Assembly (NCBI RefSeq): GCF_032681285.1 | Contig: NZ_CP136336.1 | Coordinates: 186,001 to 250,000 of the forward strand | Direction of reading: 5' to 3' | DNA from: Piscinibacter gummiphilus | Lineage (GTDB): Bacteria > Pseudomonadota > Gammaproteobacteria > Burkholderiales > Burkholderiaceae_C | DNA length: 64,000 nucleotides | Shown here: one piece after another, positions 10,285-30,563 of the stretch | Layout of the letters: every line of letters begins with the position of its first letter | How positions within the stretch are numbered: the first letter of the stretch is position 1 | Translations under genes and position numbers: made by a program | Notes under the pieces: generated by a model | The model's input: only the letters and a program-made list of their open reading frames with translations | Told to the model about the DNA's origin: nothing | Database searches by the model: none

Positions 10285-11613
10285 TCAACGCGCGACCGAA
10301 AGCCGCCAGCAGGTGAGCCCCGGGTCGTCGCACGGCACCGCGTCGAGCGTGCCGCCGTGGATCGCGGCCACGCGTCGCACAAGCTGATGGCCGAGGCCGA
10401 GGCCGGCGCTGCGGCGTGAGGGCGGCGCGCCCGACGCTCGGCCGTTGTCGAGCACTTCCACCCCCGGGGGCTCGGCCGTCACCCGTACCTGCACCGCCGT
10501 GCCGCGCGGGGTGTGCAGGATCGCGTTGTCGATCAGGTTGCGCAGCGCGAGCTCCAGCAGCGCCGGGTGGCCGGTGACGGGGCAGGGCCCATCGGCGTCG
10601 AGCGACAGCTCGTGGTCGTGGTGGTCGGCGGCCTGCGCGCAGTCGGCGGTGACTCGCCGCGCCAGCTCGGCTAGGTCGACCGGCTGCGCCGCTTCGGCCA
10701 GCTCGGTGCGGCTCGCGCGGGCCAGCGCCAGCAGATCGGCGAGCACGTCGCCGGCACGGCGGGCGTCGTCGTCGAGTCGGCGCAGCACGTCGGCCTTTTC
10801 TTCGGCCGACAAGGGTTGCTGCAGGGACGCCGCGTGAAGCTGCAGCGAGGCGAGCGGCGTGCGCAGCTCGTGCGCGATCTCGCTGGCCAGCGCCCGCTCG
10901 CGCTCGAGCGCGGCGTTGTAGCGCTCGATCAGCGTGTTGATCGCATCGACCGTGGCCTTGAACTCGTCGTGCGGTGGGGCGTGCAGGCGCTTGTCGTGGT
11001 GGATGTCGAGTGCGAGCACCTGGCGGCCCAGGTCGTTCAGCGGGCGCAGGCCGCGCCGGATGGCGAGCACGAGCCCGATCGCCACCACCGGCAGCAGCCA
11101 CAGGCCCGGCTCGGCCACCTGCTCGGCGATGTCTTCGGCCAGGTCGTCGCGCTCGGCCATGCTGAGCAGCACCATGATCTTGCGCTGATGCTCGGCGCCG
11201 CTCCAGCGCGAGAAGGCGCGCCAGGCCTGCCGCCTGGGGCCGAGCTGCAATGTCTCGAAGCCTTCCTGCGCGCTGAACGCCGGGGTGGGCGCGCTGCCGC
11301 TGCGCGTGACGACGCGGCCCTCGCCGTCCCACACCACGATGCTCAGCGACTGCTGGTAGTCGTGCGCCTTCAGCTCGGGGTGGCTGCCCATCGCCTGCCC
11401 TTCGGGCGTGGGCAGGAACTCGGGGTTGCGCTGGCGCAGCAGCAGCGTGGCCACGCTCGCGAGGTGGCCGTCGGTCAGCTCGTCGGCCTCGTGCTCGCCG
11501 GTGTTGTAGCCCACCACCACGAAGAAGAGCCACACCGCGCACAGCGCGGCCAGCGCCCAGGCCAGCAGGTGCTGGAGCAGGGAGCCTCGCTGCAGGGTCA
11601 ACAGGCGCTTCAT
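10285..11613 (-). CDS. Sensor histidine kinase, PmrB/QseC-like
   Basis: A 442-residue inner-membrane kinase. It has an N-terminal membrane helix (about residues 15-35), a periplasmic sensor of ~120 residues, a second helix (GLWLLPVVAIGLVLAI), HAMP-like linker, the phospho-acceptor motif SEIAHELRTPLASL, N-box NLIDNAILHTP and a G-box GLGLG. The DxG box (LDNGRASG) is followed almost directly by SAGLGLG, so the ATP lid is unusually short. ATG 11613 overlaps the response-regulator stop (ATGA). Context (PAP2 phosphatase and EptA divergently transcribed) argues for PmrB-like control of lipid A modification. Confidence 0.88.
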   Translation of the reverse strand: MKRLLTLQRGSLLQHLLAWALAALCAVWLFFVVVGYNTGEHEADELTDGHLASVATLLLRQRNPEFLPTPEGQAMGSHPELKAHDYQQSLSIVVWDGEGRVVTRSGSAPTPAFSAQEGFETLQLGPRRQAWRAFSRWSGAEHQRKIMVLLSMAERDDLAEDIAEQVAEPGLWLLPVVAIGLVLAIRRGLRPLNDLGRQVLALDIHHDKRLHAPPHDEFKATVDAINTLIERYNAALERERALASEIAHELRTPLASLQLHAASLQQPLSAEEKADVLRRLDDDARRAGDVLADLLALARASRTELAEAAQPVDLAELARRVTADCAQAADHHDHELSLDADGPCPVTGHPALLELALRNLIDNAILHTPRGTAVQVRVTAEPPGVEVLDNGRASGAPPSRRSAGLGLGHQLVRRVAAIHGGTLDAVPCDDPGLTCWRLSVAR

Positions 11614-12296
11614 CGGTCTTCGTCGGTCGGCACGAAATAGCCCACGCCGCGCAGCGTGCGGATCACCCGCTCGCCGAGCTTGCGCCGCAGGTGGTGCACA
11701 TGCACCTCGATCGCGTTGCTCTCCAGCGGCGTGTCGAAGTTGTAGAGGCTCGCCTCGATCTGCTGGCGCGAGAGCACGCGGGGGCGTGCTTCCATCAGCG
11801 TCATCAGCAGGTTGAACTCGCGCGCCGAGAGTTCCACCGGCTGCCCGGCGCGGCGCACGGTGCGGCTCGCCGGGTCGATCACGAGATCGCCCCAGGTGAG
11901 CAGCACCTGGGCGCGCCCGGTGGCGCGGCGGCGCAGGGCGCGCATGCGCGCGGCCAGCTCGGCGGGGCTGAAGGGCTTGGTGACGTAGTCGTCGGCGCCC
12001 ATGTCGAGGCCGGCGATGCGCGAGGCCACTTCGTCGCGCGCGGTCATGATGAGCGTGGGCGTGGCCGGGTCGGGCAGGCCGCCGGGCGGTGCGGCGCGCA
12101 GCCGGCGCAGCACCTGGGTGCCGTCGCCGTCGGCCAGGCCGAGGTCGAGCAGCACCATCTCGAAGGGCTCGGCCGTCAGCGCCGCCCACGCCGCGGCCAC
12201 GCTCGGCACGATGTCGGCCACCCAGCCCTCCTGCCGCAGCGCCAGGCCCAGGCCGTGGGCGATGCCCTCGTCGTCTTCGATCACCAGAACCCGCAT
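11610..12296 (-). CDS. OmpR-family response regulator, PmrA/QseB-like
   Basis: A 228-residue protein: receiver domain (residues 1-120) with acidic pocket EDD, phospho-acceptor Asp in VLLDLGLADGDG, Thr in TLIMTARD and Lys in YVTKPF; winged-helix DNA-binding domain (residues ~130-225, LSAREFNLLMTLMEARPRVLSRQQIE and VHHLRRKLG...RTLRGVGY). It is translated coupled to the downstream kinase. A TTAAG direct repeat resembling a PmrA box lies 26 bases upstream of its start and 23 bases before the divergent PAP2 gene, so it likely regulates both directions. Confidence 0.92.
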   Translation of the reverse strand: MRVLVIEDDEGIAHGLGLALRQEGWVADIVPSVAAAWAALTAEPFEMVLLDLGLADGDGTQVLRRLRAAPPGGLPDPATPTLIMTARDEVASRIAGLDMGADDYVTKPFSPAELAARMRALRRRATGRAQVLLTWGDLVIDPASRTVRRAGQPVELSAREFNLLMTLMEARPRVLSRQQIEASLYNFDTPLESNAIEVHVHHLRRKLGERVIRTLRGVGYFVPTDEDR

Positions 12297-12322
12297 GCGC
12301 CGGATTCTGCACTTTGCGTTTC

Positions 12323-12339
12323 GTTAAGCCGTACTTAAG
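12323..12339 (+). promoter_or_regulatory. PmrA-box-like direct repeat, GTTAAG-N5-CTTAAG
   Basis: Two TTAAG-containing hexamers spaced by 5 bases (GTTAAG, CCGTA, CTTAAG) sit in the 65-bp gap between the response-regulator gene and the PAP2-eptA pair. The published PmrA box is YTTAAK-N5-YTTAAK; only the first base of the first hexamer deviates. The 11-base periodicity is what an OmpR-family dimer needs. Confidence 0.6.
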
Positions 12340-12361
12340 CCGGCGGCGAGATGCTTCCGGC

Positions 12362-13027
12362 ATGAGATCGACGCGTGCGGCCGTGTGGGGCCTGTTCCTG
12401 TTGCCTGTCCTGCTGCTGTGGGACCGGTCCGGCTTCGACCTTGCGCTGGCCCACCTGGCCGGCACGTCGCAGGGCTTTGCCTGGCGTGACGAATGGTGGC
12501 TCACCGCGGTCCTGCATGACGGTGCACGCCACGCGGCGTGGGCGCTCGTCGTGGCCTTGTGCCTGGCCGTGGTGTGGCCGGTGGGCGCTTTCGCGCGGCT
12601 GCCGTTCCGGCGCCGCCTGCAGGTGCCGGTGGTGGCCTTGATGGCGACCGCCGCAGTGGCGCTGCTCAAGGCGGGCAACGCCACCAGCTGCCCGTGGGAC
12701 ATGGCCGAGTTCGGCGGTGTGGCCCACCCGGTGTGGCACTGGCAGGGCTGGCTCGTGAGCGACGGCGGTGCGGGGCATTGCTTCCCGGCCGGCCACGCGA
12801 CGACGGGCTTCGCCTGGGTCGGCGGTTGGTTCGCATGGCGCGAGACCTCGCCGGTGGTCGCCTCGCGCTGGTTGTGGGCCGCCCTTGCCACAGGCCTCGC
12901 GCTCGGGCTCGCGCAGCAATGGCGCGGCGCGCATTTCGCGAGCCACACGCTGTGGTCGGGCTGGATCTGCTGGATGCTCGCGAGCGTCTCCGACCGCTGG
13001 TTCGCCGCCGAGGAGGCCCGCGCATGA
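12362..13027 (+). CDS. PAP2-superfamily membrane phosphatase
   Basis: A 221-residue membrane protein with about five to six hydrophobic helices. The three PAP2 phosphatase motifs are recognisable in degenerate form: KAGNATSCPW, CFPAGHATTGF (PSGH-type) and QQWRGAHFASHTLWSG (SR...H-type with the catalytic His). The family removes phosphate from lipid pyrophosphates; here, next to an EptA-type transferase and a PmrAB-like system, a lipid A 1-phosphatase or undecaprenyl-pyrophosphatase role is plausible. Its stop overlaps the eptA start (ATGA), so the two are coupled. ATG 12362 is the first Met of the open domain. Confidence 0.85.
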   Translation: MRSTRAAVWGLFLLPVLLLWDRSGFDLALAHLAGTSQGFAWRDEWWLTAVLHDGARHAAWALVVALCLAVVWPVGAFARLPFRRRLQVPVVALMATAAVALLKAGNATSCPWDMAEFGGVAHPVWHWQGWLVSDGGAGHCFPAGHATTGFAWVGGWFAWRETSPVVASRWLWAALATGLALGLAQQWRGAHFASHTLWSGWICWMLASVSDRWFAAEEARA

Positions 13028-14679
13028 CCCGCCACCTGCCTGTGCTGACGCGTTCGGCGCCAATTTCGCCACTGTGGGTGCTCGCCGCCTGCAGCCTGTG
13101 GATGGCCGGGCCGGGCAACTGGGTGCTGTGGCGCAAGCTCGCGCAACTCGGCCTGCTGCAAGGTCTCGGCGGTGCGGCGTTTGCCGTCGCACTCGGCGTG
13201 ATGCTCGCTGCGGCGCTGGCCGCGCTCATGGCCTTGCTGGCCTGGCGCCTCACGCTCAAGCCCGCGGCCACGCTGCTGCTCGTGGCCACCGCGGCGGGCA
13301 GCCACTTCATGGGCAGCTACGGCGTGGTCATCGACCCCGGGATGATGCGCAACGTGATCGAGACCGACCTGCACGAAGCGCGGGCCCTGGTCGACGTGCG
13401 CCTGCTGCTCGCGCTCGGGCTGCTGGCTGGCTTGCCGGCCTGGTGGTTGTGGCGGCAGCCGATTGCGCCGCGCCGCTTCGGCCGGGCGCTGTGGCAGAAC
13501 GCCGCCACGGTGGGGGCCGCGTTGCTCGTGCTGGTGGCCGCGGGGCTTGCGAGCTTCCAGCCGCTGGCCTCGTCGATGCGCAACCACAAGGATCTGCGCT
13601 ACCTCTTCAACCCGCTCAACAGCGTCTACGCCGTGGCGCGCGAGGTGGGGCTGCCGCGGGCGAATGCGGCCACGCCGATCGAGCCGCTGGGCGCTGATGC
13701 GCAGGTGGCCTCGGCTGCTCCGGCCTCGCGCGCGCCGATCCTGGTGCTGGTGCTCGGTGAAACCGGCCGCAGCGGCAACTTCGGCCTGAACGGCTATGCG
13801 CGCGACACCACGCCCGAGCTGGCGCGCGAGTCGGTGGTCAGCTTCCGCAACGCCTGGGCCTGCGGCACCAGCACGGCGGTGTCGGTGCCCTGCATGTTCT
13901 CCGGGCTCGGGCGCGAGCAGTTCAAGCCCGATGCCGCGCAGCGTGCCGAGGGCCTGCTCGACGTCCTGCAGCACGCGGGCCTCGCGGTGCTCTGGCTCGA
14001 CAACCAGTCGGGTTGCAAGGGCGTGTGCGACCGCGTGCCGCACGCGGCCACCTGCCCGCAAGGCGATTGCCTCGACGACGTGATGCTCGCCGGCCTCGAC
14101 GAGCGCCTCGCCGCACTCGACCCGGCCCGCCGCGCCCGCGGCACGGTGATCGTGATGCACCAGATCGGCAGCCACGGCCCGGCCTACCACCTGCGCTCGG
14201 GGCCGGCGCAGAAGCGCTTCATGCCGGAGTGCACGGCGGCCTCGCTCACCGCGTGCAGCCGCGAGGCGATCGTCAACGCCTATGACAACTCCATCGCCGC
14301 CACCGACCACGCGCTCGCGCTGACCATCGGCTGGCTGAAGGCGCGCGGCGATGCGCCGACGGCGATGGTCTACGTGGCCGACCACGGCGAGTCGCTGGGC
14401 GAGAACAACCTCTTCCTGCACGGCATGCCCTACGCCATCGCACCCGAGGTGCAGAAGCGCGTGCCGTGGGTGACGTGGATGTCACCCGCCTGGCAGCGCG
14501 AGTCGGGCGTCGACCTGGCCTGCCTCGCGTCGCGCCGTGACGAGGCCGTCACGCACGACAGCTACTTCCACTCGGTGCTCGGCCTGATGGGCGTGCACAC
14601 GCGCGTCTACCAGCGCACGCTCGATGCCTACGCGCCTTGCCGTGCCGAGGGGGTGGCCAGCGCGCGGGCGCCGGGCTGA
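13024..14679 (+). CDS. eptA: Lipid A phosphoethanolamine transferase (EptA/PmrC family)
   Basis: A 551-residue inner-membrane enzyme close to the E. coli EptA length. The N-terminal part has five hydrophobic helices and a periplasmic loop (SYGVVIDPGMMRNVIETD) typical of EptA. The C-terminal sulfatase-fold domain carries GETGR (metal ligand), the catalytic threonine region CGTSTAVSVPCMFS (about residues 280-292), a Cys-rich stretch (SGCKGVCD, CPQGDC) and DHGESLGENNLFLHG metal ligands. It transfers phosphoethanolamine from phosphatidylethanolamine to lipid A, which lowers surface charge and cationic-peptide susceptibility. It lies in a PmrA-box-controlled unit with the PAP2 gene. Confidence 0.93.
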   Translation: MTRHLPVLTRSAPISPLWVLAACSLWMAGPGNWVLWRKLAQLGLLQGLGGAAFAVALGVMLAAALAALMALLAWRLTLKPAATLLLVATAAGSHFMGSYGVVIDPGMMRNVIETDLHEARALVDVRLLLALGLLAGLPAWWLWRQPIAPRRFGRALWQNAATVGAALLVLVAAGLASFQPLASSMRNHKDLRYLFNPLNSVYAVAREVGLPRANAATPIEPLGADAQVASAAPASRAPILVLVLGETGRSGNFGLNGYARDTTPELARESVVSFRNAWACGTSTAVSVPCMFSGLGREQFKPDAAQRAEGLLDVLQHAGLAVLWLDNQSGCKGVCDRVPHAATCPQGDCLDDVMLAGLDERLAALDPARRARGTVIVMHQIGSHGPAYHLRSGPAQKRFMPECTAASLTACSREAIVNAYDNSIAATDHALALTIGWLKARGDAPTAMVYVADHGESLGENNLFLHGMPYAIAPEVQKRVPWVTWMSPAWQRESGVDLACLASRRDEAVTHDSYFHSVLGLMGVHTRVYQRTLDAYAPCRAEGVASARAPG

Positions 14680-15229: not shown

Positions 15230-16030
15230 TCAGGTGGCGAGCTTGCGCAGCCGCGAGGAGGCCACGTCGATCAGCGACACCGACACCACCAGCATGATGA
15301 GCACCGCCGCCGTCTGCGCATAGGCGAAGCCGCGGATCACGTCCCACAGCACCATGCCGATGCCGCCCGCGCCCACCATGCCCACCACCGAGGCCGAGCG
15401 CACGTTGGATTCGAAGCGGTAGAGCGCATACGAGATCCACAGCGGCATCACCTGCGGGATCACGCCGTAGACGATCTCGGCCAGCGGGTGGGCGCCGGTG
15501 GCGCGGATGCCCTCCACCGGCTGCGGGTCGATCGCCTCCACCGCTTCAGAGAAGAGCTTGGCCAGCACGCCGGTCGTGTGCACCCAGAGCGCCAGCACGC
15601 CCGCGAACGGGCCGAGGCCCACCGCCACCACGAAGAGCAGCGCGAACAGCATCTCGTTGATGGCGCGGCAGCCGTCGAGCAGGCGGCGCACCGGCTGGTG
15701 CACCCACCACGGCGTGATGTTGGCCGAGGCGAGCAGTGCGAGCGGCACCGAGCACGCGATGGCCAGCGCCGTGCCCCACAGCGCGATCTGCAGCGTGACC
15801 ACCAGCTCGGTGACGTAGTGGCGCCAGTCGCTGAAGTCGGGCGGAAAGAAGCCACGGGCGTACTCGCCCATGTTGCCGCCGTCGCGCAGCAGGTCGAGCG
15901 GGCGCATGTCGGCACCCTTCCAGCTGGCGGCGAGCACCGCCAGCAGCATGCCCCACACCGCGAGGGTGAGGAGCGAGGTGCGCGGCGGGGCGATGCGGTC
16001 GGCCACCGGGGCGAGGCTGAGCGAGGACAC
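15230..16030 (-). CDS. phnE: Phosphonate ABC transporter permease PhnE
   Basis: A 266-residue permease with about six membrane helices and the ABC-permease coupling loop ([33 protein letters not shown], shown by its EAA-like core about residue 170), followed by [20 protein letters not shown], a signature of PhnE/PtxC. It forms the transmembrane channel with PhnC ATPase and PhnD binding protein. It lies 3 bases downstream of phnD in one operon. Only one permease gene is present, as in many phosphonate importers. Confidence 0.93.
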
Positions 16031-16033
16031 GGC

Positions 16034-17014
16034 TTACTTCGCGAGCGCGATCTGCTGCGCCAGCTCGGCCAGGCGCTGGTCGATGTCCTTCAGCTTCTTC
16101 GCGCGCTCGTCGGCGGGCAGCGCGGTGTCGGCCTCGACCTTGCTGCGCTCCTTGGCGAGCTCGAGCTGGCGGATCGGCGTGAGCTGCTGGTTGTCGGACT
16201 TCACGAAGGCCGACCAGGTGAGCGTCTTCATCACCTCCTTCTCGCGCGCGTCCTTGCTGCCGTAGGTGAAGAAGAAGTTGCGCAGCTTCTGCTTGGTGAC
16301 CTCATCGAGATCCTTGCGGTACAGCAGCGGGTCGCTCGGGATCAACGGCGAGCGCCAGACTTCGCGCAGCTCGGCCGCCTTTTCCGGCAGCTTCGCTTTC
16401 ACACGGTCGAAGGTGTCGCTCGCCACCGTGGCCACGTCGACCTGCTTGTTCGCCACCGCGAGGATGTTGCTCTCGTGGTTGGCGCGGGCGCTGCGTTTGA
16501 AGTCGCGCACCGGATCGACCTTGTTCGCCGCCCAGGCATAGAAGCCCGGCACCAGCGTGCCGCTCGTGGAGTTGGTGTCACCCATGCCGAGGGTGAGGCT
16601 CGTGCGCTGCTTCAGCACGTCGTCGAGCGACTTGAGCGGGCTGTCCTTGTGCACGATCATCAGGCTCCAGTAGCCCTGCGTGCCGTCGAGCGAGACGACC
16701 TTGCCGAACACTTCGCCGTTCGCGCGGTCGACCGCTTCCATGCCCGACTTGTTGCCCATCCACGCGAGCTGGACCTTGTTGAAGCGCATCGCCTCGATCA
16801 CGCCGGCGTAGTCGGGCGCGAAGAAGGCGGTGACCTTGAGGCCGGTGGCCTTCTGCAGGTCGTCGATCAGCGGCTGCCAGGCGGTCTTGAGGTTGGCCGA
16901 GGACTCGGTGGCAATGATGCCCATCTGCAGCTCACGGGCCTGCGCATGGGCATGCTGGTGGAGCCACATCGAGGCGGTGGTGGCGAGGACGAGAAGAATG
17001 GCTCTGCGGTTCAT
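16034..17014 (-). CDS. phnD: Phosphonate ABC transporter substrate-binding protein PhnD
   Basis: A 326-residue periplasmic protein. A Sec signal peptide occupies residues 1-27 (ends AHAQA). The mature part shows PhnD features: LQMGIIATESSANLKTAW, FFAPDYAGVIEAMRFNKVQLAWMGNKS and MGDTNSTSGTLVPGFYAW, which form the phosphonate pocket. The C-terminus is a Lys/Glu-rich helix. ATG 17014 is preferred over an upstream Met at 17026 because GGAG lies at the right distance. It is encoded 18 bases after phnC. Confidence 0.93.
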   Translation of the reverse strand: MNRRAILLVLATTASMWLHQHAHAQARELQMGIIATESSANLKTAWQPLIDDLQKATGLKVTAFFAPDYAGVIEAMRFNKVQLAWMGNKSGMEAVDRANGEVFGKVVSLDGTQGYWSLMIVHKDSPLKSLDDVLKQRTSLTLGMGDTNSTSGTLVPGFYAWAANKVDPVRDFKRSARANHESNILAVANKQVDVATVASDTFDRVKAKLPEKAAELREVWRSPLIPSDPLLYRKDLDEVTKQKLRNFFFTYGSKDAREKEVMKTLTWSAFVKSDNQQLTPIRQLELAKERSKVEADTALPADERAKKLKDIDQRLAELAQQIALAK

Positions 17015-17032
17015 GCGGGGCTCCAAAGGGGG

Positions 17033-17860
17033 TCAGGCGGCCAGGGGCACGGGGTGGAAGGGCGCCGAGGCGTCGTGCGGCCTCGGCATGAGTTCATCGG
17101 TCTGCGTGCCGTAGAGGTCACGCAGGCGTTGCGGGGTCAGGTCGCGCGTGGCGCCGTCGTGCACCACCTCGCCGGCGCGCAGCGCCACGGTGCGCGGGCA
17201 GTAGGCGAAGGCGTAGTCGATCTGGTGCAGCGAGACGATCACCGTCACGCCCAGCTCGCGGTTCACTTCGGCCAGCAGCTCCATCACACGCCGGCTCGAT
17301 TCGGGGTCGAGCGAGGCGATGGGCTCGTCGGCGAGGATGATCTGCGCGCCCTGGACCAGCGCGCGCGAGATCGCGGCCCGCTGCTGCTGGCCGCCGGACA
17401 GCGTGGAGGCGCGCTGCCAGGCGCAGCGCTCGATGCCCACACGTTTGAGCGCGTCGAACGCGCGTTGCAGCTCGTGTTGCGGAAACTGCGCGAAGAGCCC
17501 GCGCCACAGCGGCTGGCGGTGCAGCGCACCGGCCAGCACGTTCTTCATCACGGAGAGGCGGTCGACCAGGTTGAACTGCTGGAAGATCGCCGCCACCTGC
17601 GCCCGTGTGGCGCGTGCATCGCGGGCCAGCCTGCCGCCGCGCTGCAGCGTGCGGCCCAGCACCTCGACGTGCGAGGTGCTGCTAGCGTCGGCCCGGTGCA
17701 GCCCGTTGAGGTGGCGCAAGAGCGTCGACTTGCCCGAGCCCGAAGCGCCGAGCAGCGCGACCATCTCGCCGCGTTGCACGCTGAGCGACACGTCGCGCAA
17801 GGCGGTGTGGGCACCGAAGGTCTTGCGCAGCTGCGTCACCTGGATCACGTTGTTCGTCAT
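17033..17860 (-). CDS. phnC: Phosphonate ABC transporter ATP-binding protein PhnC
   Basis: A 275-residue ABC ATPase with Walker [11 protein letters not shown]-loop [10 protein letters not shown], signature [15 protein letters not shown], Walker [16 protein letters not shown] and switch His in VSLHQIDYA. This, with PhnD and PhnE downstream, identifies the phosphonate importer. It is the first gene of the operon. ATG 17860 follows GAGGA; an upstream in-frame ATG at 17881 lacks one. A Pho-box-like direct repeat lies 47-64 bases upstream. Confidence 0.94.
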
Positions 17861-17890
17861 GCTTGGCGTCCTCGTCTTCAAACCTCGAAG

Positions 17891-17924
17891 ATTGTGGGAA
17901 GCCAGCGTGACGATTGCGTGACGA
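17891..17924 (-). promoter_or_regulatory. Pho-box-like promoter of the phnCDE operon
   Basis: On the minus strand TCGTCAC (17924-17918), a 4-base spacer, then TCGTCAC again (17913-17907): two identical 7-mers in the 7-4-7 geometry of the PhoB Pho box (CTGTCAT repeats; GTCA core conserved). Ten bases downstream is CACAAT (17896-17891), a possible -10, the spacing seen in PhoB-activated promoters. Confidence 0.6.
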
Positions 17925-17956
17925 CTCCTCTACAGGGAGATGAAAGGTCTAGATGA

Positions 17957-19516
17957 CTACGGCACGCTGTAGCTGGCCAGCGGCTGGCCGAAACGGATCA
18001 GCCAGAGACGCGTGTCCCGCTCGCTGTCGGCCCCGCGCGCGAGGCGGGCGCCCACCACGCCGGCCGGGCAGCCGGAGACGATGGCACCGCTCGCGTCGAC
18101 CGTGCAGTCCTCGATGCTGCCGGCCACCGTGGCGCCCGCCGCGTCGAGCAGGATGGTGCGCAGGCCGAAGTCGTTGTCGTTGACGAGGGCCAGCGTGTTG
18201 GCGTCCACGAGGGTCAGGCCCTCGGCCTTCTCGGCCACCCAGCCGGCGGCGTTGAGGTCGAGCAGCTCGGTCTTGCGCAGGGTGACGACGGTCGAGTAGT
18301 CGGCGCCGTTCGAGGCGGCCTGCGTGATGCTGCTGATCTCGAGGTCATGGCCCTGCGCGGTGATGTCGGTGGCGTTGGCCGGGATCTCCACCAGGTACAG
18401 CTTGTTCATCACCCGCGCATCGCTCTTGCGAGCACCCTGCTCGATGACGATGAACTTGCCATGGCCGAGGCTCACCACGTCGCCGAGCTTGGCGTTGCCG
18501 GTGCGGTCGCGGTCGTACTGCGTGCCGTCGATCGGGTAGGCGTAGAGCTTCGAGGTTTCGGTCGTCGGGTCGAACTCGAGCCAGCGCACGAACTTCGCGA
18601 TGTGGCGCACGTCGGTGTTGCTGCCGCCGGGCGGGCGCGCGCGGAGGGACGCGCCGTTCGCGTCCTTCGGGTCGATGGGGCTTTGCAGGAAGCCGTGCAG
18701 ATTGCCGCTCGCGACATCGAGCGTGAGACCTTCCATGCCGCGGTTGACGCGGCGCTTGGCGAGCACGGCCGGCAGGTCGGCGGCGCCCGGCCCCGGGCCG
18801 TACTTGCGCTCGATCACGCCGGTCGTGCGGTTGATGCGCACGATGAAGGGGCCGTATTCGTCGCTCGCCCACAGCACGTTGCGCGCGGCGTCGACGACGA
18901 TGGATTCGGGGTCGAGGCCGTTGGCGTCGTAGTTGGCGGTGGCCGCATCGAAGCGGTAGGCGTCGTTGAGCGGCGTCTCGCCGGTCGAGCCCGTGCCGGC
19001 CTGGGGCGGCAGGCCAGTGATGCGGGTGGTGGCGTTCGACCGGAGCGGGGTGGCGCTCTGGAGCACGGCGTTGGCGCCCACGCGGATCACGCCGAAGCTC
19101 GGCGCGAACGAAGGCGCTGGGAACACCTTGCTGATGCCGTTGCCCGTGCCGCCGGGCACGGGCGCGCTGGGGCCGTCGCCATTGGGGCCGCGGTCGGTGA
19201 TGGCGTAGAACTCGAGCGTGCCGTCGGCGAGTCGCTCCTTGAAGGCGAGGCCGGAGCCGTAGGCGGGCAGGAAGCCGCTCGCGAAGTCGGCCGCGATGGC
19301 GGCGTTGCGGCCTTCGTAGGGAAGGTTGAAGGACGCGGCCGCCTGCAGCTCGTGCTTGGTGACGCTCACCGACACGTTGCCGAGCGCATTGCTCTGCGCA
19401 TAGGCCTGCGGCGCCGGCGCGGTGGGGCCGGAGGTGTCATCGTCGCCACCACCGCAGGCGGTGAGCAGGAAGGTGGCCGCGGCAAATGCGGCCCAGGAGC
19501 GAGTGTGTTGTTTCAT
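17957..19516 (-). CDS. Phytase-like esterase-family lipoprotein
   Basis: A 519-residue protein with a lipoprotein signal peptide (lipobox LTAC, Cys about residue 21, followed by GGGDDD). The rest matches the esterase-like activity of phytase family (beta-propeller): YAITDRGPNGDGP, DPESIVVDAARNVLWASDEYGPFIVRI (quoted in part), RRVNRGMEGLTLD, FVRWLEFDPTT, AEGLTLVD and NDNDFGLR are its recurring blades. It is anchored in the membrane and faces the periplasm or exterior. Neighbouring phnCDE genes and a triple Pho-box-like repeat upstream suggest a role in organic phosphate use; true phytase activity is unproven. Confidence 0.88.
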   Translation of the reverse strand: MKQHTRSWAAFAAATFLLTACGGGDDDTSGPTAPAPQAYAQSNALGNVSVSVTKHELQAAASFNLPYEGRNAAIAADFASGFLPAYGSGLAFKERLADGTLEFYAITDRGPNGDGPSAPVPGGTGNGISKVFPAPSFAPSFGVIRVGANAVLQSATPLRSNATTRITGLPPQAGTGSTGETPLNDAYRFDAATANYDANGLDPESIVVDAARNVLWASDEYGPFIVRINRTTGVIERKYGPGPGAADLPAVLAKRRVNRGMEGLTLDVASGNLHGFLQSPIDPKDANGASLRARPPGGSNTDVRHIAKFVRWLEFDPTTETSKLYAYPIDGTQYDRDRTGNAKLGDVVSLGHGKFIVIEQGARKSDARVMNKLYLVEIPANATDITAQGHDLEISSITQAASNGADYSTVVTLRKTELLDLNAAGWVAEKAEGLTLVDANTLALVNDNDFGLRTILLDAAGATVAGSIEDCTVDASGAIVSGCPAGVVGARLARGADSERDTRLWLIRFGQPLASYSVP

Positions 19517-19554
19517 GGTCGTTGACGGACTGCGACGGTGCAGCCCCCCATTGC

Positions 19555-19583
19555 ATGACGTCGGCATGAAACCCGTGTGACAC
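19555..19583 (-). promoter_or_regulatory. Triple Pho-box-like repeat upstream of the phytase-like gene
   Basis: On the minus strand three 7-mers occur at exact 11-base intervals: GTGTCAC (19583-19577), GTTTCAT (19572-19566), ACGTCAT (19561-19555), each separated by 4 bases. All resemble the PhoB half-site CTGTCAT. The array ends 38 bases before the start codon. Confidence 0.55.
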
Positions 19584-19630
19584 TCCCGCGCATAAAACCG
19601 GGCACGTCGATGACCCGAAGGGAGTGTGTG

Positions 19631-20143
19631 ATGTGGCATGGATGGGCCTTGGGTCCGATTTGGCGTGGCGCGGCGGGCCGCCTGCGCGACTGGGTGCGGC
19701 GCAGGCTGAAGATGGGTGCTCCGCCGCCCGCGGCGGCGGCCGGCGTGCAAGGCTCAGAGGCACGGGCTCGCCTGCGGCGCCTGCTGGAGCAGCGGCGCTC
19801 GGCCGATGCGCTCGCCGTCTACATCTCGACGCTCAAGGTGCATCCCTCATTCGACCCTGGCACGGTGGCGGTGGTGCCGCTCACCAAGCAGGCGCTGAAG
19901 CAGCAGCGGCCCGACCTCGCCCTGCAGCTGCTCGAAGCCTTCGGCCAACGGCGGCCAGCCGACACGCGCACAGCGCTCTATCGCTGGCTGCACGGGCAGG
20001 CGTTGATCGAAGCTGGCCGTGGGCCGGAAGGCGTGGCGCAGCTGCAGGCGCTGATGCTGCACCACCCGGGCGATCGGCACGCGCGCGAGGCGCGCAGCCT
20101 GCTGGCGCACCACCGCGACAGCGGCACCACGTCGACGGCCTGA
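19631..20143 (+). CDS. TPR-like hypothetical protein
   Basis: A 170-residue protein with a basic, Trp-rich N-terminus (about residues 1-30) and a helical body resembling degenerate TPR units: ARLRRLLEQRRSADALAVYIS, LTKQALKQQRPDLALQLLEAF, LHGQALIEAGRGPEGVAQLQALM. There is no signal peptide or catalytic motif. ATG 19631 is chosen because AAGGGAG precedes it; upstream Met codons at 19577 and 19610 lack ribosome sites. It is divergent from the phytase-like gene and convergent with the deacetylase-caspase gene. The function is unknown, possibly protein-protein interaction. Confidence 0.65.
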   Translation: MWHGWALGPIWRGAAGRLRDWVRRRLKMGAPPPAAAAGVQGSEARARLRRLLEQRRSADALAVYISTLKVHPSFDPGTVAVVPLTKQALKQQRPDLALQLLEAFGQRRPADTRTALYRWLHGQALIEAGRGPEGVAQLQALMLHHPGDRHAREARSLLAHHRDSGTTSTA

Positions 20144-20158: not shown

Positions 20159-22888
20159 TCAGGGCAGGCGTGGCCGGTGCGCCGCGTCGGGGGTGGCGAT
20201 GAAGGCCTGCAACTCCGCCGCCCGTGCGTGCTGGGGCGACAGGCCCACGAAGGTGCTGTAGGCCGCCAGCGCCTTCTTGTCGTCGCCAGCCTGCAGCTGC
20301 GCATCGCCGAGGTTGAGGTAGGCGAGCGCGCGGCTGCCGTCCATCTCGATGGCCTTTTCGAACCAGCGCGCCGCTTCGACCGGCTTGCCGCGCTTGAAGT
20401 AGACGAAGCCGAGGTTGTTCGCGGCGAGCGCGAATTTCGGTTGCAGCTTCAGCGCCTCGGTGAACGCGGCTTCGGCTTCGTCGTAGCGGCGCTCGCGGTA
20501 GAGCGCGAGGCCGCGGTCGTTGGCGCGCTGCGCGGCCACGCGGGCTGGCACGGCGGTGGCGGCGGTGGTGATGAGCTTCACGTCGGCGCCATCGAGGTTC
20601 TTCACCGTCACCTGCACCGCCGCACCGGGTTTGGCGGCTTCGGGGGCGGCGTCGTCGAGGCGCTTGGCGAGCTGGCTCGCGGCGGCGTCGAGCTGGCGGG
20701 TGTCGGCGCTCAGGCCGTCGCGCTCGATGGGCAGCTCGAACACGAACTCGCCACCTTCCGAGCCGGGCAGGTTGCCGAAGGCCGGCGTCTGCTTGGCGAT
20801 CGCGCTGACCGAAGGCGCCACGTAGGCCGCGAGCTCGGTGCCGGTGATAACACCGTCGCCGTTCAGGTCGGCCTTGCCGTTAAGGGCCTGCAAGAGCGTC
20901 CAGGTGAAGACCGAGTGGCCGCCGGGGCCGTCGTCGGCCACCTGCTGGTCGGCACCGCCGGCCGTGAGCATCTGGCGGCCCACGCGACGTGCGTTGTCGG
21001 CGAGGAAGTTCTTGCTGGCACCGGCGCCGCCACGGGTGAGGCCGAGGCCGGAGTAACACGCGTCGACCATGAACATCACGTGCTTGGCGCTGATGGCTTC
21101 GGCCACCTCCTGCAGCTGCGGCATCGAGATCGCATCGCTCGCGAAGTCTTGCAGTGAGGCATCGACCGGGATCAGGTAACCCACGTCGCGCCCGCTCGTC
21201 AGCTTGCGCGTGCCGCCGTGGCCGGCGAAGAAGACGAGCACCCGGTCGTCTCGCTTGATGCGGGCGCCATCGGCGAGGCGTTCGTTGAGGGCCTTCAGGA
21301 TGTTGGCGCGCGTGGCCTCGCCGTCGTAGAGCGCGGTCACGTTCTCGGGCTTGAAGCCGAAACGGGTGGTGAGGGCTTCTTGCACCGCCTTCGCGTCGCG
21401 CACCGCGTGCTGCAGGCCGGGCCACTTGCCGTACTTGTCGATGCCGATCACGAGGGCGTGGCTGTCGCGGTAGAGTGTGTCGCTCGACGCGGCCATCGCC
21501 GCATCGGGCGCGGCCTTCTTCGGCGTGCCGACGACGAACTTGCCGTCGCGCCAGGTGGCGAAGCGGTAGCCGTCGGCCACCAGCGCATCGAGCACCGCCG
21601 GCAGCGCCTGCACCGTGCGACCCTGGATGTCGTGGAAGAGGATCACGCCGCGCTGGTGCTTGTCGACTTCGCTCAGCACGCGCTCGGCGATGGAGCGCGG
21701 CACCGGGTCGGCCCAGTCCTGCGAGTCGATGTTCCACATCATCGAGTGCAGCTTCAGGCCTTCGACGGTGGCCAGCGAGACTTCGTTGCGCGCACCGTAG
21801 GGGAAGCGAAAGAGCTTCGAGGGCTGGCGGCCGGTGGCGTCGAGCAGCGCCTCGGTGTTGGCCGCCTCGACCTTCACCGCATCACCCGTCAGCTTGGCCA
21901 TCACGCTGTGGCTGTAGCTGTGGTTGGCGAGCTGGTGCCCGGCGGCGAGCACGCGCTTGGCCACCGCCGCATGGGCGCCGGGCCTGGCTTTGCCCTCGGC
22001 GTCGACGCTGCCGAGGTTGCGCCCGAGGTGGAAGAAGATCGCGGGTGCGTCGTAGCGCTTGAGGATGTCGAGGATGTCGTCGGTGTAGCGTGCGTGCGGG
22101 CCGTCGTCGAAGGTCAGCACCACGGTCTTGGGTGGCAGCGACATGCCGAAGATCTCGCGCGTGTCGGCCTCTTCGGCGCCCGCCTTGCCGCTCGGTGCGG
22201 TGTACGGCACGACGGTGGCGTAGTCCTTCAGGATCTGCTCTCGGTTGTAGAGCGTCGAGAGCTTGGCGACGTAGTCGCTCCACTTCTCGCGCTTGAGCTC
22301 GATGCCGCGTTTCGCGAAGCGCCCGAAGACCTCTTTCAGCTCCTTGTCGTAGGCCTGCTCCACCTCGGCGAGCACGGCCAGGTCTTCGTTGGCGCGCTTG
22401 GCGAGCTTGAGGCCGGCGATGGAGTGCGAGCTGCTGTAATGCGCGGCCACGCGGGTCAGGAACTCCTTGAATGCGAGCCGGTCGGCATCGAACCACGAGG
22501 GCTCGCCCTCGATGCGGTCGAGCAGTGTGTTGACCGCGCCGAGCACGGCCGGGTCTTGCGCGGTGGCGGCGGTGGTCAGCGTGTCCAGGCGCTGCTGCAT
22601 GTCGTGGAACAGCATCTGGCCGACGGCCGCGACCGCGCGCCGCTCGGCCGGCTTCAGGCTGCGCTCGCCGTGCATCAGCACGATCATCTGGCGGTGCGAG
22701 GCGAGCACTGCGTCGGCCATCGGCGTGAGCTGTGGGGCTGGCGCGTTCTGCGATGCAGGCGCGGCGGGGCTGGCGGCGACCGCCGCGGTCGGCGTGGCCG
22801 GAGCTTCCGGCGTCTCTTGCCGCTGGCAGGCGACCAGCATCAACAGGCAGGAAACGGCGAGGCTTCGGCGCGGCGTGAACATGGGCAT
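20159..22888 (-). CDS. Lipoprotein fusing polysaccharide deacetylase, caspase-like protease and TPR domains
   Basis: A 909-residue protein. Residues 1-19 are a lipoprotein signal peptide (lipobox LVAC). A helical region follows (to ~245). A NodB-type deacetylase domain occupies ~250-460: TFDDGPH (about residue 260), NHSYSH metal ligands, RFPYGARN, and a late LFHDIQG. A caspase/peptidase C14 domain occupies ~480-720: HALVIGIDKYG, catalytic His in FFAGHGGT (about 557), catalytic Cys in VDACYSG (about 611). Within it is an EF-hand-like DLNGDGVIT loop (about 674). TPR repeats occupy ~790-890. It is predicted to be anchored in an envelope membrane. I know of each domain but not of this combination's function. 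Another ATG lies at 22882. Confidence 0.88.
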   Translation of the reverse strand: MPMFTPRRSLAVSCLLMLVACQRQETPEAPATPTAAVAASPAAPASQNAPAPQLTPMADAVLASHRQMIVLMHGERSLKPAERRAVAAVGQMLFHDMQQRLDTLTTAATAQDPAVLGAVNTLLDRIEGEPSWFDADRLAFKEFLTRVAAHYSSSHSIAGLKLAKRANEDLAVLAEVEQAYDKELKEVFGRFAKRGIELKREKWSDYVAKLSTLYNREQILKDYATVVPYTAPSGKAGAEEADTREIFGMSLPPKTVVLTFDDGPHARYTDDILDILKRYDAPAIFFHLGRNLGSVDAEGKARPGAHAAVAKRVLAAGHQLANHSYSHSVMAKLTGDAVKVEAANTEALLDATGRQPSKLFRFPYGARNEVSLATVEGLKLHSMMWNIDSQDWADPVPRSIAERVLSEVDKHQRGVILFHDIQGRTVQALPAVLDALVADGYRFATWRDGKFVVGTPKKAAPDAAMAASSDTLYRDSHALVIGIDKYGKWPGLQHAVRDAKAVQEALTTRFGFKPENVTALYDGEATRANILKALNERLADGARIKRDDRVLVFFAGHGGTRKLTSGRDVGYLIPVDASLQDFASDAISMPQLQEVAEAISAKHVMFMVDACYSGLGLTRGGAGASKNFLADNARRVGRQMLTAGGADQQVADDGPGGHSVFTWTLLQALNGKADLNGDGVITGTELAAYVAPSVSAIAKQTPAFGNLPGSEGGEFVFELPIERDGLSADTRQLDAAASQLAKRLDDAAPEAAKPGAAVQVTVKNLDGADVKLITTAATAVPARVAAQRANDRGLALYRERRYDEAEAAFTEALKLQPKFALAANNLGFVYFKRGKPVEAARWFEKAIEMDGSRALAYLNLGDAQLQAGDDKKALAAYSTFVGLSPQHARAAELQAFIATPDAAHRPRLP

Positions 22889-22935
22889 GGAATGTGGGTC
22901 GGCGAAAGACGCGCGACGATAGCGCACCCGCCTAA

Positions 22936-24384
<1,449 letters not shown>

Positions 24385-27317: not shown

Positions 27318-30300
27318 ATGACAGAAGTACACGACACGTCCGAGGGAAGTGCCACCGCCACCAGGCGCAATGGCCTGAATGCCACCATCGCCCGCCTGTT
27401 CTTCGGGCTGGGCTGCGGCATGTCCGTGGTGGGTGCGGCCGCCTACGGGCTGCTCGACCTCCGGCTGGAGCCCGGCATGCAGGCGATGCTGGTGTCGGTG
27501 TGCTCGGCGCTGGCGCTCGTCTTCGCGCTCGCGACGGTGCTGCTGCGCCGCGCGCCCCTGTCGACGGTGATGCTGGTGGTGGGCTGGAGCGGCGTGACCG
27601 TGGTGGCGCTCACCGCGGTCGGGGTCGGCGAAGGGGTGCGCAGCCTGAGCCTCGGCTTCTTCGGCCTCATGGTGTGCCTGGTGACGGTGCTCACCAGCCT
27701 GCGCGCCGGCCTGGTGCTCGCGCTCGGCTGCGTGGCAGCGGTGCTGGGCCTCACCTGGGCCGAGTCGGCCCGGCTGCTGCCCGGTGTGCTGGCGCTGCAG
27801 CGCAACCCCACCGTGCTGCACGTGATCGCGCACATGATGCTGCTTGCGACCGCCGTGGTGGCCGGCACGCAGATGTCGCAGATGATCGACCGCGCGATGC
27901 GCGACGCCGAAGAGCGCCAGCAGCGTTTTCGCAACCTGCTCGCCATCGCCGCCGACTGGTACTGGGAGCTCGACGCCGACCTGCGCTTCAAGCGCATCGA
28001 CACCCATGTGCACGCGAGCGCCGGCCCGGCCGCCGAAGCGCGCATCGGCCAGCGCCCCTGGGAGAGCCCGCAGCTCGACATGGACCCGATCGCGCTCGAC
28101 CTGCACCGCCAGGACCTCGAAGCGCACCGCCCCTTCAGCGACCTGCCGGTGCGCTACCGCTCGCCCTCGGGCCGGCTGTCGCACTTCAGCGTGAGCGGGC
28201 GACCCCGCTTCGACGAGGACGGCCACTTTCGCGGCTACTGGGGCGTGGGCCGCGACATCACACCCGAGGTGCAGGCGCGCGAAGCGCACCGCGCGAGCGA
28301 GACGCGCTACCGCGAGCTCTTCGCGATGTCGCCCACGCCGCTGGTGCTGCACCGCAACGGCATCACCATGCTCGCCAACGAAGCTGCGGCCCGCCTCTTC
28401 GGCTTTGCGAGCCCCGAGGCGATGGGCGGCTTCAACCTCGAGCAGCTCTACCCCGTGCCGCAGCGTGGGCTGCTGCACGACCGCATCCGTACGCTGAACG
28501 GCTACCCCATCGGCAAGACCCTGGACCTGGCCGAGTTCCACCTGCACGCCGTCGACGGCCGGCGCCTCACGGTGCAGGCCAACAGCGCCCGCGTGAGCAC
28601 CAACGACGGCACGGCGATCCTGTCGATGTACTTCGACGTGACCGAGCGGGTGAGCACCGAGATCCAGCTGCGCCGTTCGCAGGCGATGCTGTCGCACCTC
28701 TTCGCCACCAGCCCCGACTTCATCACCCTGAGCGACATGGAGACCGGCGTCTACGTGATGGTCAACGAGAGCTTCACGCGCATGTTCGGCTACAGCGCGG
28801 CCGAGGTGGTGGGCAAGAGCGCGCTGGAACTCGGAATCTGGTACCAGCCGGCCGACCGCCAGAGGATGGTGGCCGAGCTGCTGGCGCACGGCGGCGTGAA
28901 CGAAGTGGAGACGCTCTTCGTGCACAAGTCGGGCGCCATCGTCACGCTGATGATGTCGGCCGGCCGCTTCACGATGGACGGGCGCAACTACCTGGTCGTC
29001 AACGGCCGCGACGTGACCGAGATCCAGCGCACGCGTCTCGAGCACGAGGCCATCCTGAAAAACGCGTCGATCGGCATCGCGCTCACGCGCAACCAGCGCT
29101 TCCTGCAGGCCAACCCGAGCTTCGAGCGCATGTTCGGCTGGGCGAGCGGCGAGCTGATCGGCAAGCCCGGCGCGGTGGTGTGGGCCACCGAAGAAGACTA
29201 TGCCGAGGTGGGCCGCATCGCCGGGCCCTTGCTCTCGGTGGGCAAGCCGGTCGAGATCGAACGTCAGATGCTGCGCCACGACGGCACGCTCTTCTGGTGC
29301 CGCCTGCTCGCGCAGGTGGTCGACCCCGGCCACCCGAGCATGGGCGGCACCATCTGGATCGCCGAAGACGTGACCGAGCGGCGCCAGATCGAGCAGGCAC
29401 TCGCCGCCGCGCGCGACGTGGCCGAGGCGGCGAGCCGCGCCAAGAGCGCCTTCCTCGCCAACACCAGCCACGAGATCCGCACGCCGCTCAACGGCCTGCT
29501 GGGGCTCGCAAGCCTCGCGATGCAGAAGGGTGTCGACGAGAAGCGCCGCCTGCAGTACCTGGAGCAGATCCAGGACAGCGCGCAAAGCCTCTCGGGGATC
29601 ATCAGCGACATCCTCGACCTTTCGAAGATCGAAGCCGGCAAGTTCAGCATCGAGGCGGTGCCGTTCAATCTGCGGCACCTGCTGAAGGCGGTGCACCATG
29701 CGTACCAGTCGCTCGCCACGGCGCGCTCGCTGCAATTGAAGCTCGACGTGGCACCCGACGTGCCGGTCACCGTGCTCGGCGACCCCGTGCGCCTGCGGCA
29801 GATCCTCAGCAACTACATCACCAACGGCCTGAAGTTCACCGAGCGCGGCGAGGTGAGCCTGGAGGTGTCGATGTCGACCGCCCCGGCGCGCTCGGGGCAG
29901 GTGCGCTTCACCGTCAGCGACACCGGGCCGGGCATCGACACCACCACGCAGAAGCGCCTGTTCCAGCCCTTCACCCAGGCCGACGATTCGACGACGCGGC
30001 GCTTCGGCGGCACGGGCCTCGGCCTGTCGATCTGCAAGGAGCTTGCGGAGCTGATGGACGGCGCGGTGGGCGTCGACAGCACGCCGGGCATCGGCAGCCG
30101 CTTCTGGGCCGAGCTGCCCCTGCCACCGACGGACCTGCCGGTGGTCGACCCGCGCGTGGAGGCAGAGGACATCCAGCGCCTCGAAGGCCTGCGCGTGCTG
30201 CTGGTGGAAGACAACCCCGTCAACATGATGATCGGCGTGGCCATGCTCGAGCAGTGGGGCGTGGAGGTGACGCAGGCCGCCGATGGCGCCGAGGGCGTGG

Positions 30301-30563
30301 CGGCGGTGGAGCGGGCGCAGGCGGCGCAGCGGCCCTTCCATGTGGTGCTGATGGATGTGCAGATGCCCCGGCTTTCGGGGCATGAGGCGGCGCGGCAGCT
30401 GCGGTGCCTGTACTCCGCGGAGGAGCTGCCGATCATTGCGCTCACCGCGGCTGCGCTGGTGTCGGAGCGCGAGGAGGCGTTGGCTTCGGGGATGAACGAC
30501 TTTTTGACGAAGCCGATTGATGTGCACAAGTTGAGGGTGGCGTTGGTTCGGGCGGTGGGGTGA
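27318..30563 (+). CDS. Membrane hybrid sensor histidine kinase with four PAS domains
   Basis: A 1081-residue protein. Residues ~20-180 hold about six hydrophobic helices (an integral-membrane sensor). Four PAS/PAC units follow (~200-320, 325-450, 455-575, 580-700; each PAC ends in a GRDIT, FDVTERV, GRDVTEI or EDVTERR motif). The HisKA motif FLANTSHEIRTPLNG has the phospho-acceptor His at about 718. The ATPase domain shows NYITNGLKFTERG, DTGPGID and GGTGLGLSI. The C-terminal receiver has its Asp about 1013 (VLMDVQMP). It ends in the receiver with no Hpt domain, so a separate Hpt protein would be needed for a full phosphorelay. The cognate signal is unknown. Confidence 0.92.
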   Translation: MTEVHDTSEGSATATRRNGLNATIARLFFGLGCGMSVVGAAAYGLLDLRLEPGMQAMLVSVCSALALVFALATVLLRRAPLSTVMLVVGWSGVTVVALTAVGVGEGVRSLSLGFFGLMVCLVTVLTSLRAGLVLALGCVAAVLGLTWAESARLLPGVLALQRNPTVLHVIAHMMLLATAVVAGTQMSQMIDRAMRDAEERQQRFRNLLAIAADWYWELDADLRFKRIDTHVHASAGPAAEARIGQRPWESPQLDMDPIALDLHRQDLEAHRPFSDLPVRYRSPSGRLSHFSVSGRPRFDEDGHFRGYWGVGRDITPEVQAREAHRASETRYRELFAMSPTPLVLHRNGITMLANEAAARLFGFASPEAMGGFNLEQLYPVPQRGLLHDRIRTLNGYPIGKTLDLAEFHLHAVDGRRLTVQANSARVSTNDGTAILSMYFDVTERVSTEIQLRRSQAMLSHLFATSPDFITLSDMETGVYVMVNESFTRMFGYSAAEVVGKSALELGIWYQPADRQRMVAELLAHGGVNEVETLFVHKSGAIVTLMMSAGRFTMDGRNYLVVNGRDVTEIQRTRLEHEAILKNASIGIALTRNQRFLQANPSFERMFGWASGELIGKPGAVVWATEEDYAEVGRIAGPLLSVGKPVEIERQMLRHDGTLFWCRLLAQVVDPGHPSMGGTIWIAEDVTERRQIEQALAAARDVAEAASRAKSAFLANTSHEIRTPLNGLLGLASLAMQKGVDEKRRLQYLEQIQDSAQSLSGIISDILDLSKIEAGKFSIEAVPFNLRHLLKAVHHAYQSLATARSLQLKLDVAPDVPVTVLGDPVRLRQILSNYITNGLKFTERGEVSLEVSMSTAPARSGQVRFTVSDTGPGIDTTTQKRLFQPFTQADDSTTRRFGGTGLGLSICKELAELMDGAVGVDSTPGIGSRFWAELPLPPTDLPVVDPRVEAEDIQRLEGLRVLLVEDNPVNMMIGVAMLEQWGVEVTQAADGAEGVAAVERAQAAQRPFHVVLMDVQMPRLSGHEAARQLRCLYSAEELPIIALTAAALVSEREEALASGMNDFLTKPIDVHKLRVALVRAVG

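Follow-up and report, generated by a model that had tools for sequence, protein, structure and literature searches.

In a 2012 survey, Asplund-Samuelsson et al. named the 'Xanthomonas-type metacaspase' (PMC3501461). According to the sections of that paper cited here, a PF01522 domain is followed in this type by a caspase domain and then by one to three TPRs, some members having no TPRs, and the protein is of 97-100 kDa in Xanthomonas. The same sections count 17 sequences, taken from Xanthomonas, Xylella, Stenotrophomonas and two Acidobacteria, and every one of them has the Cys-His dyad; for the three gammaproteobacterial genera they describe the gene in an operon with trmE (mnmE), close to yidC and rnpA. 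In the open-access literature we found the deacetylase-metacaspase type of Xanthomonas in this survey alone; later work on it may exist in subscription journals.

Gene layout and family membership

The window, that is the whole stretch of 64,000 nucleotides analysed here, carries on its minus strand at 20159-22888 a single open frame of 909 aa (97.8 kDa), which we assigned from the frame, Pfam and homologs as a predicted deacetylase-caspase-TPR lipoprotein of the Xanthomonas type. Along the chain the order is lipobox, low-complexity linker, helical domain, NodB, C14 with an EF-hand-like loop, linker and TPRs. By translation and Pfam we recovered everything that an earlier, sequence-only reading of this DNA had placed in one 909-residue chain (lipobox, NodB, C14 pair, EF-hand-like loop and TPRs). 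The NodB/CE4 deacetylase domain (residues 244-450, 21539-22159, minus strand like all parts of the gene given below) was delimited by Pfam, solved relatives and a fold search, with Polysacc_deac_1 at residues 251-378 (E 3e-27). The C14 caspase-like domain (residues 471-718, 20735-21478) rests on Pfam, with Peptidase_C14 at 477-674 (E 2.3e-20), and on the fold search. The C-terminal TPR region (residues 783-895, 20204-20542) comes from structure prediction and from Pfam, where TPR_1 matches in three stretches (E 2e-17, best 791-819). On the opposite strand a 592-aa frame overlaps the gene (21218-22996), a usual by-product of 67-70% G+C.

The deacetylase-then-caspase order, the C-terminal TPRs and the Cys-His dyad are those of the published type, the size also agrees (97.8 kDa versus 97-100 kDa), and homology runs over the full length. 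When we compared the protein with the copy from Stenotrophomonas sp. SY1 (P0122, the same as L037), which served as the reference member for identity, 461 of 898 columns were identical (51%). The SY1 copy has the same Pfam order and its gene is flanked by yidC and mnmE, as published. From this identity, the shared Pfam order and the neighbours of the Stenotrophomonas copy, the window's protein almost certainly belongs to the Xanthomonas-type metacaspases, as a Rhizobacter-like representative from Burkholderiales. Unlike the described members, its host belongs to Burkholderiales, which is not among the groups given for the type in the cited sections, and its gene adjoins purB and a phytase-like gene, not mnmE. 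The mnmE/yidC/rnpA operon is absent from this locus: purB (22993-24384, plus strand) is upstream and divergent, 104 bases apart, and the phytase-like gene is downstream on the strand of the fusion gene, as is a phosphonate ABC transporter. Membership stands despite these other neighbours because the operon was reported, in the sections at hand, for three genera and not for the whole type. The sequence-only reading could not name the combination of domains; it is already known and named, having been described in 2012 (PMC3501461), and this analysis adds, among other things, Burkholderiales members, as assigned from their sequences.

Spread of the fusion

In a search of 5.8 billion proteins with the window's protein as query, 7993 candidates were scored and 2355 matched. 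We examined the best 120 of these, which are 61-94% identical to the query; precomputed Pfam annotation shows both domains in all of them, and their named sources include Rhizobacter, Piscinibacter, Variovorax, Roseateles, Pelomonas and Mitsuaria. With the Stenotrophomonas copy as query, both domains were again present in all of the best 120 of 2265 matches. Two entries of this second list, P0142 and P0226, are close to the Stenotrophomonas copy but recorded as Bacillus subtilis and as the fungus Knufia peltigerae, probably through contamination of those records. The window's protein and the two lists of 120 together form the alignment of 241 sequences used below. The same domain order, which the earlier reading had proposed to look for in other genomes, is thus present in the 240 listed homologs.

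Within the genus, the full-length architecture was found in five of ten other genomes, and one incomplete assembly (G005) gave a match to residues 12-88 alone. The copy in G010 (L016, G010:C26:215173-217908) has two in-frame TAG, from decay or sequencing error; with the window's own copy counted, the genus gave six full-length matches, and no other of them is interrupted in this way.

In the family sample the N-terminal domain of the fusion was detected in 33 of 399 genomes, a count that takes in the window's genome, and in 17 of 141 genera. At 31 of these 33 places (the window, two same-genus genomes, eight and twenty further genomes) the NodB and caspase motifs share one uninterrupted frame with it; the 32nd is the G010 copy with its TAG codons and the 33rd, in G935, is in a 1450-aa frame. 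In the class sample it was present in 3/369 genomes, again including the window's own. A distant copy from another class of the phylum (L038, 54-2547, G435; 38% identity) has its deacetylase and caspase-TPR halves in different frames, which may be error or decay.

This N-terminal helical domain (residues 57-228, 22205-22720) was defined from a Pfam null, structure prediction and the family sample: in the window's copy no Pfam family matches it above its cut-off. When it was modelled alone (A3, 34 sequences) a helix bundle was predicted with a pLDDT of 82, and no solved relative of this model could be named. Among the places examined the domain was found solely in this fusion, with 31/33 confirmed.

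Could the chain be two genes joined by an assembly or sequencing error? The frame break between the halves of the single distant copy L038 would fit such an origin, which is nevertheless left with practically no probability by the presence of both domains in every one of the 240 listed homologs, by the uninterrupted frame in 31 of 33 family genomes and by the co-variation of the four domains in distance. An artefact of this kind is ruled out by the homologs. Over 40 sequences, correlations of 0.83-0.92 were obtained between the pairwise distances in one domain and those in another, and 0/999 shuffles reach any of these values: the four domains diverge in step.

Catalytic sites, EF-hand-like loop and envelope anchor

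The full-length structure prediction has a mean pLDDT of 72 and a pTM of 0.38; because of this pTM, the single domains can be used and their mutual arrangement cannot. In a Foldseek search with the model, CE4 deacetylases headed the list, followed by MALT1 and plant metacaspase 9.

In the NodB domain, translation and alignment give motif 1 TFDDGPH (residues 259-265, 22094-22114), motif 2 HSYSH with the metal histidines (323-327, 21908-21922), motif 3 RFPYG (361-365, 21794-21808), motif 4 DSQDW (388-392, 21713-21727) and motif 5 LFHD (417-420, 21629-21640). The sequence-only reading had listed TFDDGPH, H-x3-H and RFPYG; DSQDW and LFHD complete the set of five, and all five CE4 patterns (TFDD, H-x3-H, RxPYG, DxxDW, LxH) are found in the window's protein. 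By aligned position, the residues of motifs 1-5, acids and histidines included, are kept in 241/241 sequences, bar T259, which is Ser in 19/241, and P264, which is Thr in 1/241. The NodB and caspase motifs are also present in all 20 further genomes of the family sample, which hold none of the listed database proteins; one of them reads DSCYSG.

The fold and motifs 1-5 are those of the CE4 deacetylases (PgdA, PdaC, PdaB, NodB, acetylxylan esterases), for which we know of no fusion to a protease. Over the NodB range the best solved relatives by sequence are Caldanaerobacter 7y51/7fbw and pneumococcal PgdA 2c1g. We predict with good confidence, from the conserved motifs, that the deacetylase is active. 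Unlike those enzymes, the window's domain matches the function-naming NodB models (deacetylase equivalogs) below their cut-offs, and the nearest solved deacetylase, 7fbw, carries the title acetylxylan esterase; the glycan is therefore a candidate only. We propose peptidoglycan, at about even chances, because it is the glycan within reach and because the closest solved relatives include PgdA-type enzymes.

As the earlier reading had it, the C14 pair is complete, with His557 in AGHG (21218-21220) and Cys611 in DACYSG (21056-21058). H557, D609 and C611 are kept in 241/241 by aligned position, so the loss of catalytic residues in relatives, which that reading had considered, is not observed, and each catalytic position is kept in 40/40 of the 40-sequence set. 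The AGHG and DACYSG dyad and the fold, like that of MALT1 and metacaspase 9, are shared with orthocaspases and bacterial metacaspases, from which the window's protein differs in being predicted exported and fused to a deacetylase. A search of solved-structure sequences gave no caspase-domain chain among the 60 chains listed. The PADLOC 'caspase' defence model also matches (E 1e-20), as a generic caspase match; in contrast to a defence setting, the Pfam-identified neighbours here are metabolic, regulatory and transport genes. Asp609, beside Cys611, is presumably the S1 acid, as in metacaspases. Because of this position of Asp609 next to the catalytic Cys, we predict that the protease is probably active on Arg/Lys.

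One could suppose instead that the protein is a wall deacetylase whose caspase domain is a non-cleaving sensor or scaffold. Both sites are on one tether, and C14 pseudo-enzymes have been described, mostly in Alphaproteobacteria and Cyanobacteria according to the cited part of PMC6426788. However, a pure scaffold would not need the His/Cys pair kept in 241/241, and none of the other three domains is as well conserved between the two groups of sequences as the caspase domain (65%, versus 58% for the TPRs, 52% for NodB and 42% for the N-terminal domain), which makes this supposition very unlikely.

Within the caspase domain, at residues 674-685 (20834-20869, translation and alignment), we observed the EF-hand-like loop DLNGDGVITGTE claimed by the sequence-only reading. 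It follows the EF-loop ligand pattern (positions 1, 3, 5 and 12 acidic or Asn, with Gly6), and the predicted calcium ligands Asp1, Asn3, Asp5 and Glu12 are kept in 241/241, Gly6 being Ser in seven sequences and Asn in three. The Pfam scores remain below the cut-offs, for EF-hand_5 (E 0.038, 13.9 bits versus 25.9) as for EF-hand_1 (12.2 versus 25.4). None of the ten readable same-genus C14 paralog loci (of eleven; by eye) has an EF-like loop. Across the family, where 22 of 30 C14 loci are readable and two of the 22 stop before the loop, the pattern occurs in 4/22, all four fusion members, L048 being a near-match. The stretch may at best work like an EF loop, and we do not file the protein as an EF-hand protein; a single EF loop may also be without calcium binding. 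Given the loop, a calcium dependence of the protease is conceivable, at somewhat less than an even chance.

The signal peptide and lipobox (22826-22888) were read by eye from the sequence, with L18-V19-A20-C21 followed by Q at +2. By the E. coli rule, Q at +2 after the lipid-modified Cys directs a lipoprotein to the outer membrane. A loose lipobox pattern is present in 114/121 sequences (the window's and the best 120 of 2355) and in 120/120 (the best 120 of 2265), although some N-termini in the lists look truncated. Eleven of 20 further divergent members (L091-L096, L098-L101, L104) have, by eye, a plain hydrophobic N-terminal stretch and no lipobox; the type of anchor varies within the family. 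Therefore attachment seems to be conserved and anchor chemistry not, and the label of lipoprotein given by the sequence-only reading holds for the window's copy and its near kin (LVAC, C21), not family-wide. Its broader proposal of an envelope-anchored protein carrying both catalytic sites is supported by sequence, and a location in the envelope or periplasm is very probable.

Past C21, Cys611 is the sole Cys of the chain. Across the columns of residues 57-909 exactly one Cys is found in 237/241 sequences, two in P0005, P0015, P0018 and P0065 (a cruder count gave 233 single-Cys sequences). The same holds after the anchor in 20/20 of the further family genomes, so that the catalytic Cys is the only one past the anchor in 257/261 overall. 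Twelve genes of the window average 0.79% Cys, from which about 6.8 Cys would be expected at this length, with a Poisson chance of 0.0012 for a single protein. The neighbouring periplasmic PhnD has zero Cys, and few Cys may be partly a general habit of periplasmic proteins. The pattern fits an oxidising periplasm and a protease kept active; since the homologs are not independent and PhnD also lacks Cys, it supports the location and the kept active site and proves neither.

Proposed working and neighbouring genes

With some preference, we read the protein as an envelope protein whose two enzymes face the periplasm and would link changes of the wall to proteolysis in the envelope. Given Q at +2, the lipid anchor would fix it to the outer membrane on the side of the periplasm, where the deacetylase would strip acetyl groups from peptidoglycan. 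The TPRs would recruit envelope proteins and the protease would cut these after Arg/Lys, calcium at the EF-like loop stabilising the protease or switching on its activity. Wall modification would thus be coupled to envelope proteolysis, probably under stress or in stationary phase.

The protease might also be a zymogen, in which self-cleavage in the loop after Cys611 (R619, R634/R635, R638) activates it or frees the deacetylase from the anchor. These positions are basic in 61/61 aligned sequences, the structure model gives loop 613-636 a pLDDT below 50, and a difference between 55 and 100 kDa was reported for Xanthomonas (PMC3501461, cited sections). However, same-genus paralogs without the fusion also have, by eye, Arg close to the positions that correspond to 619 and 638, which may be structural, and the NodB-caspase linker lacks a conserved basic position. 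Across residues 440-479, a stretch that includes this linker, no position is Lys/Arg in >90% of 61 sequences, and this alignment speaks against a conserved Arg/Lys self-cleavage there. We regard the zymogen as unlikely.

The same difference in size bears on a role as cell-death executioner, in which the protease would be the bacterial caspase of Xanthomonas programmed cell death and would act likewise here. In the cited sections of PMC3501461, which refer to Gautam 2002, Raju 2007 and Wadhawan 2010 for the primary work, antibodies against caspase and PARP recognised the homologous gene product (GI 88792532), and the death did not occur in mutants of X. campestris pv. glycines that were caspase-deficient. 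Yet that activity is of 55 kDa versus about 100 kDa for the fusion, a discrepancy by the survey's own account, for which processing was offered as a possible answer. In addition, a protein predicted to be extracytoplasmic would not be expected to reach cytosolic targets until lysis, and the fusion occurs in just 33/399 family genomes. Such a role appears quite improbable here.

Coming back to the coupling of wall modification to proteolysis, a more specific and rather speculative form, to which we give a low probability, is a periplasmic calcium-sensing switch. Damage to the wall or outer membrane would shift calcium or substrate access, the EF-like loop would activate the caspase site, which would cut TPR-recruited proteins or itself, and the deacetylase would modify the wall. 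If true, this would be a bacterial envelope checkpoint using a caspase outside the cytoplasm. The lone catalytic Cys and the envelope anchor sharpen the vague claim of 'bacterial apoptosis' into the role of a periplasmic caspase joined to a wall enzyme. The 2012 survey, in the sections cited, considered the role of this type outside Xanthomonas a question worth exploring (PMC3501461). Since the family is now seen in Rhizobacter, Variovorax and other genera of Burkholderiales, gene removals are possible outside a crop pathogen.

In the Burkholderiales neighbourhoods we saw no widely conserved neighbour gene pointing to a pathway. In the window, the genes at 15230-19750 for the permease, binding protein and ATPase of a phosphonate-type ABC transporter and for the phytase-like esterase possibly form a phosphorus-scavenging cluster beside the fusion gene. 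At 10285-14679 a minus-strand frame of 1378 aa, which is over-long, has a histidine kinase (HisKA, HATPase_c, 2CSK_N) in its C-terminal third. An EptA/EptB-type phosphoethanolamine transferase is encoded nearby on the plus strand, and the two may make up a locus for lipid A modification that includes its regulator. The hybrid kinase encoded at 27318-30563 (1081 aa) combines several PAS domains with HisKA, HATPase_c and a receiver.
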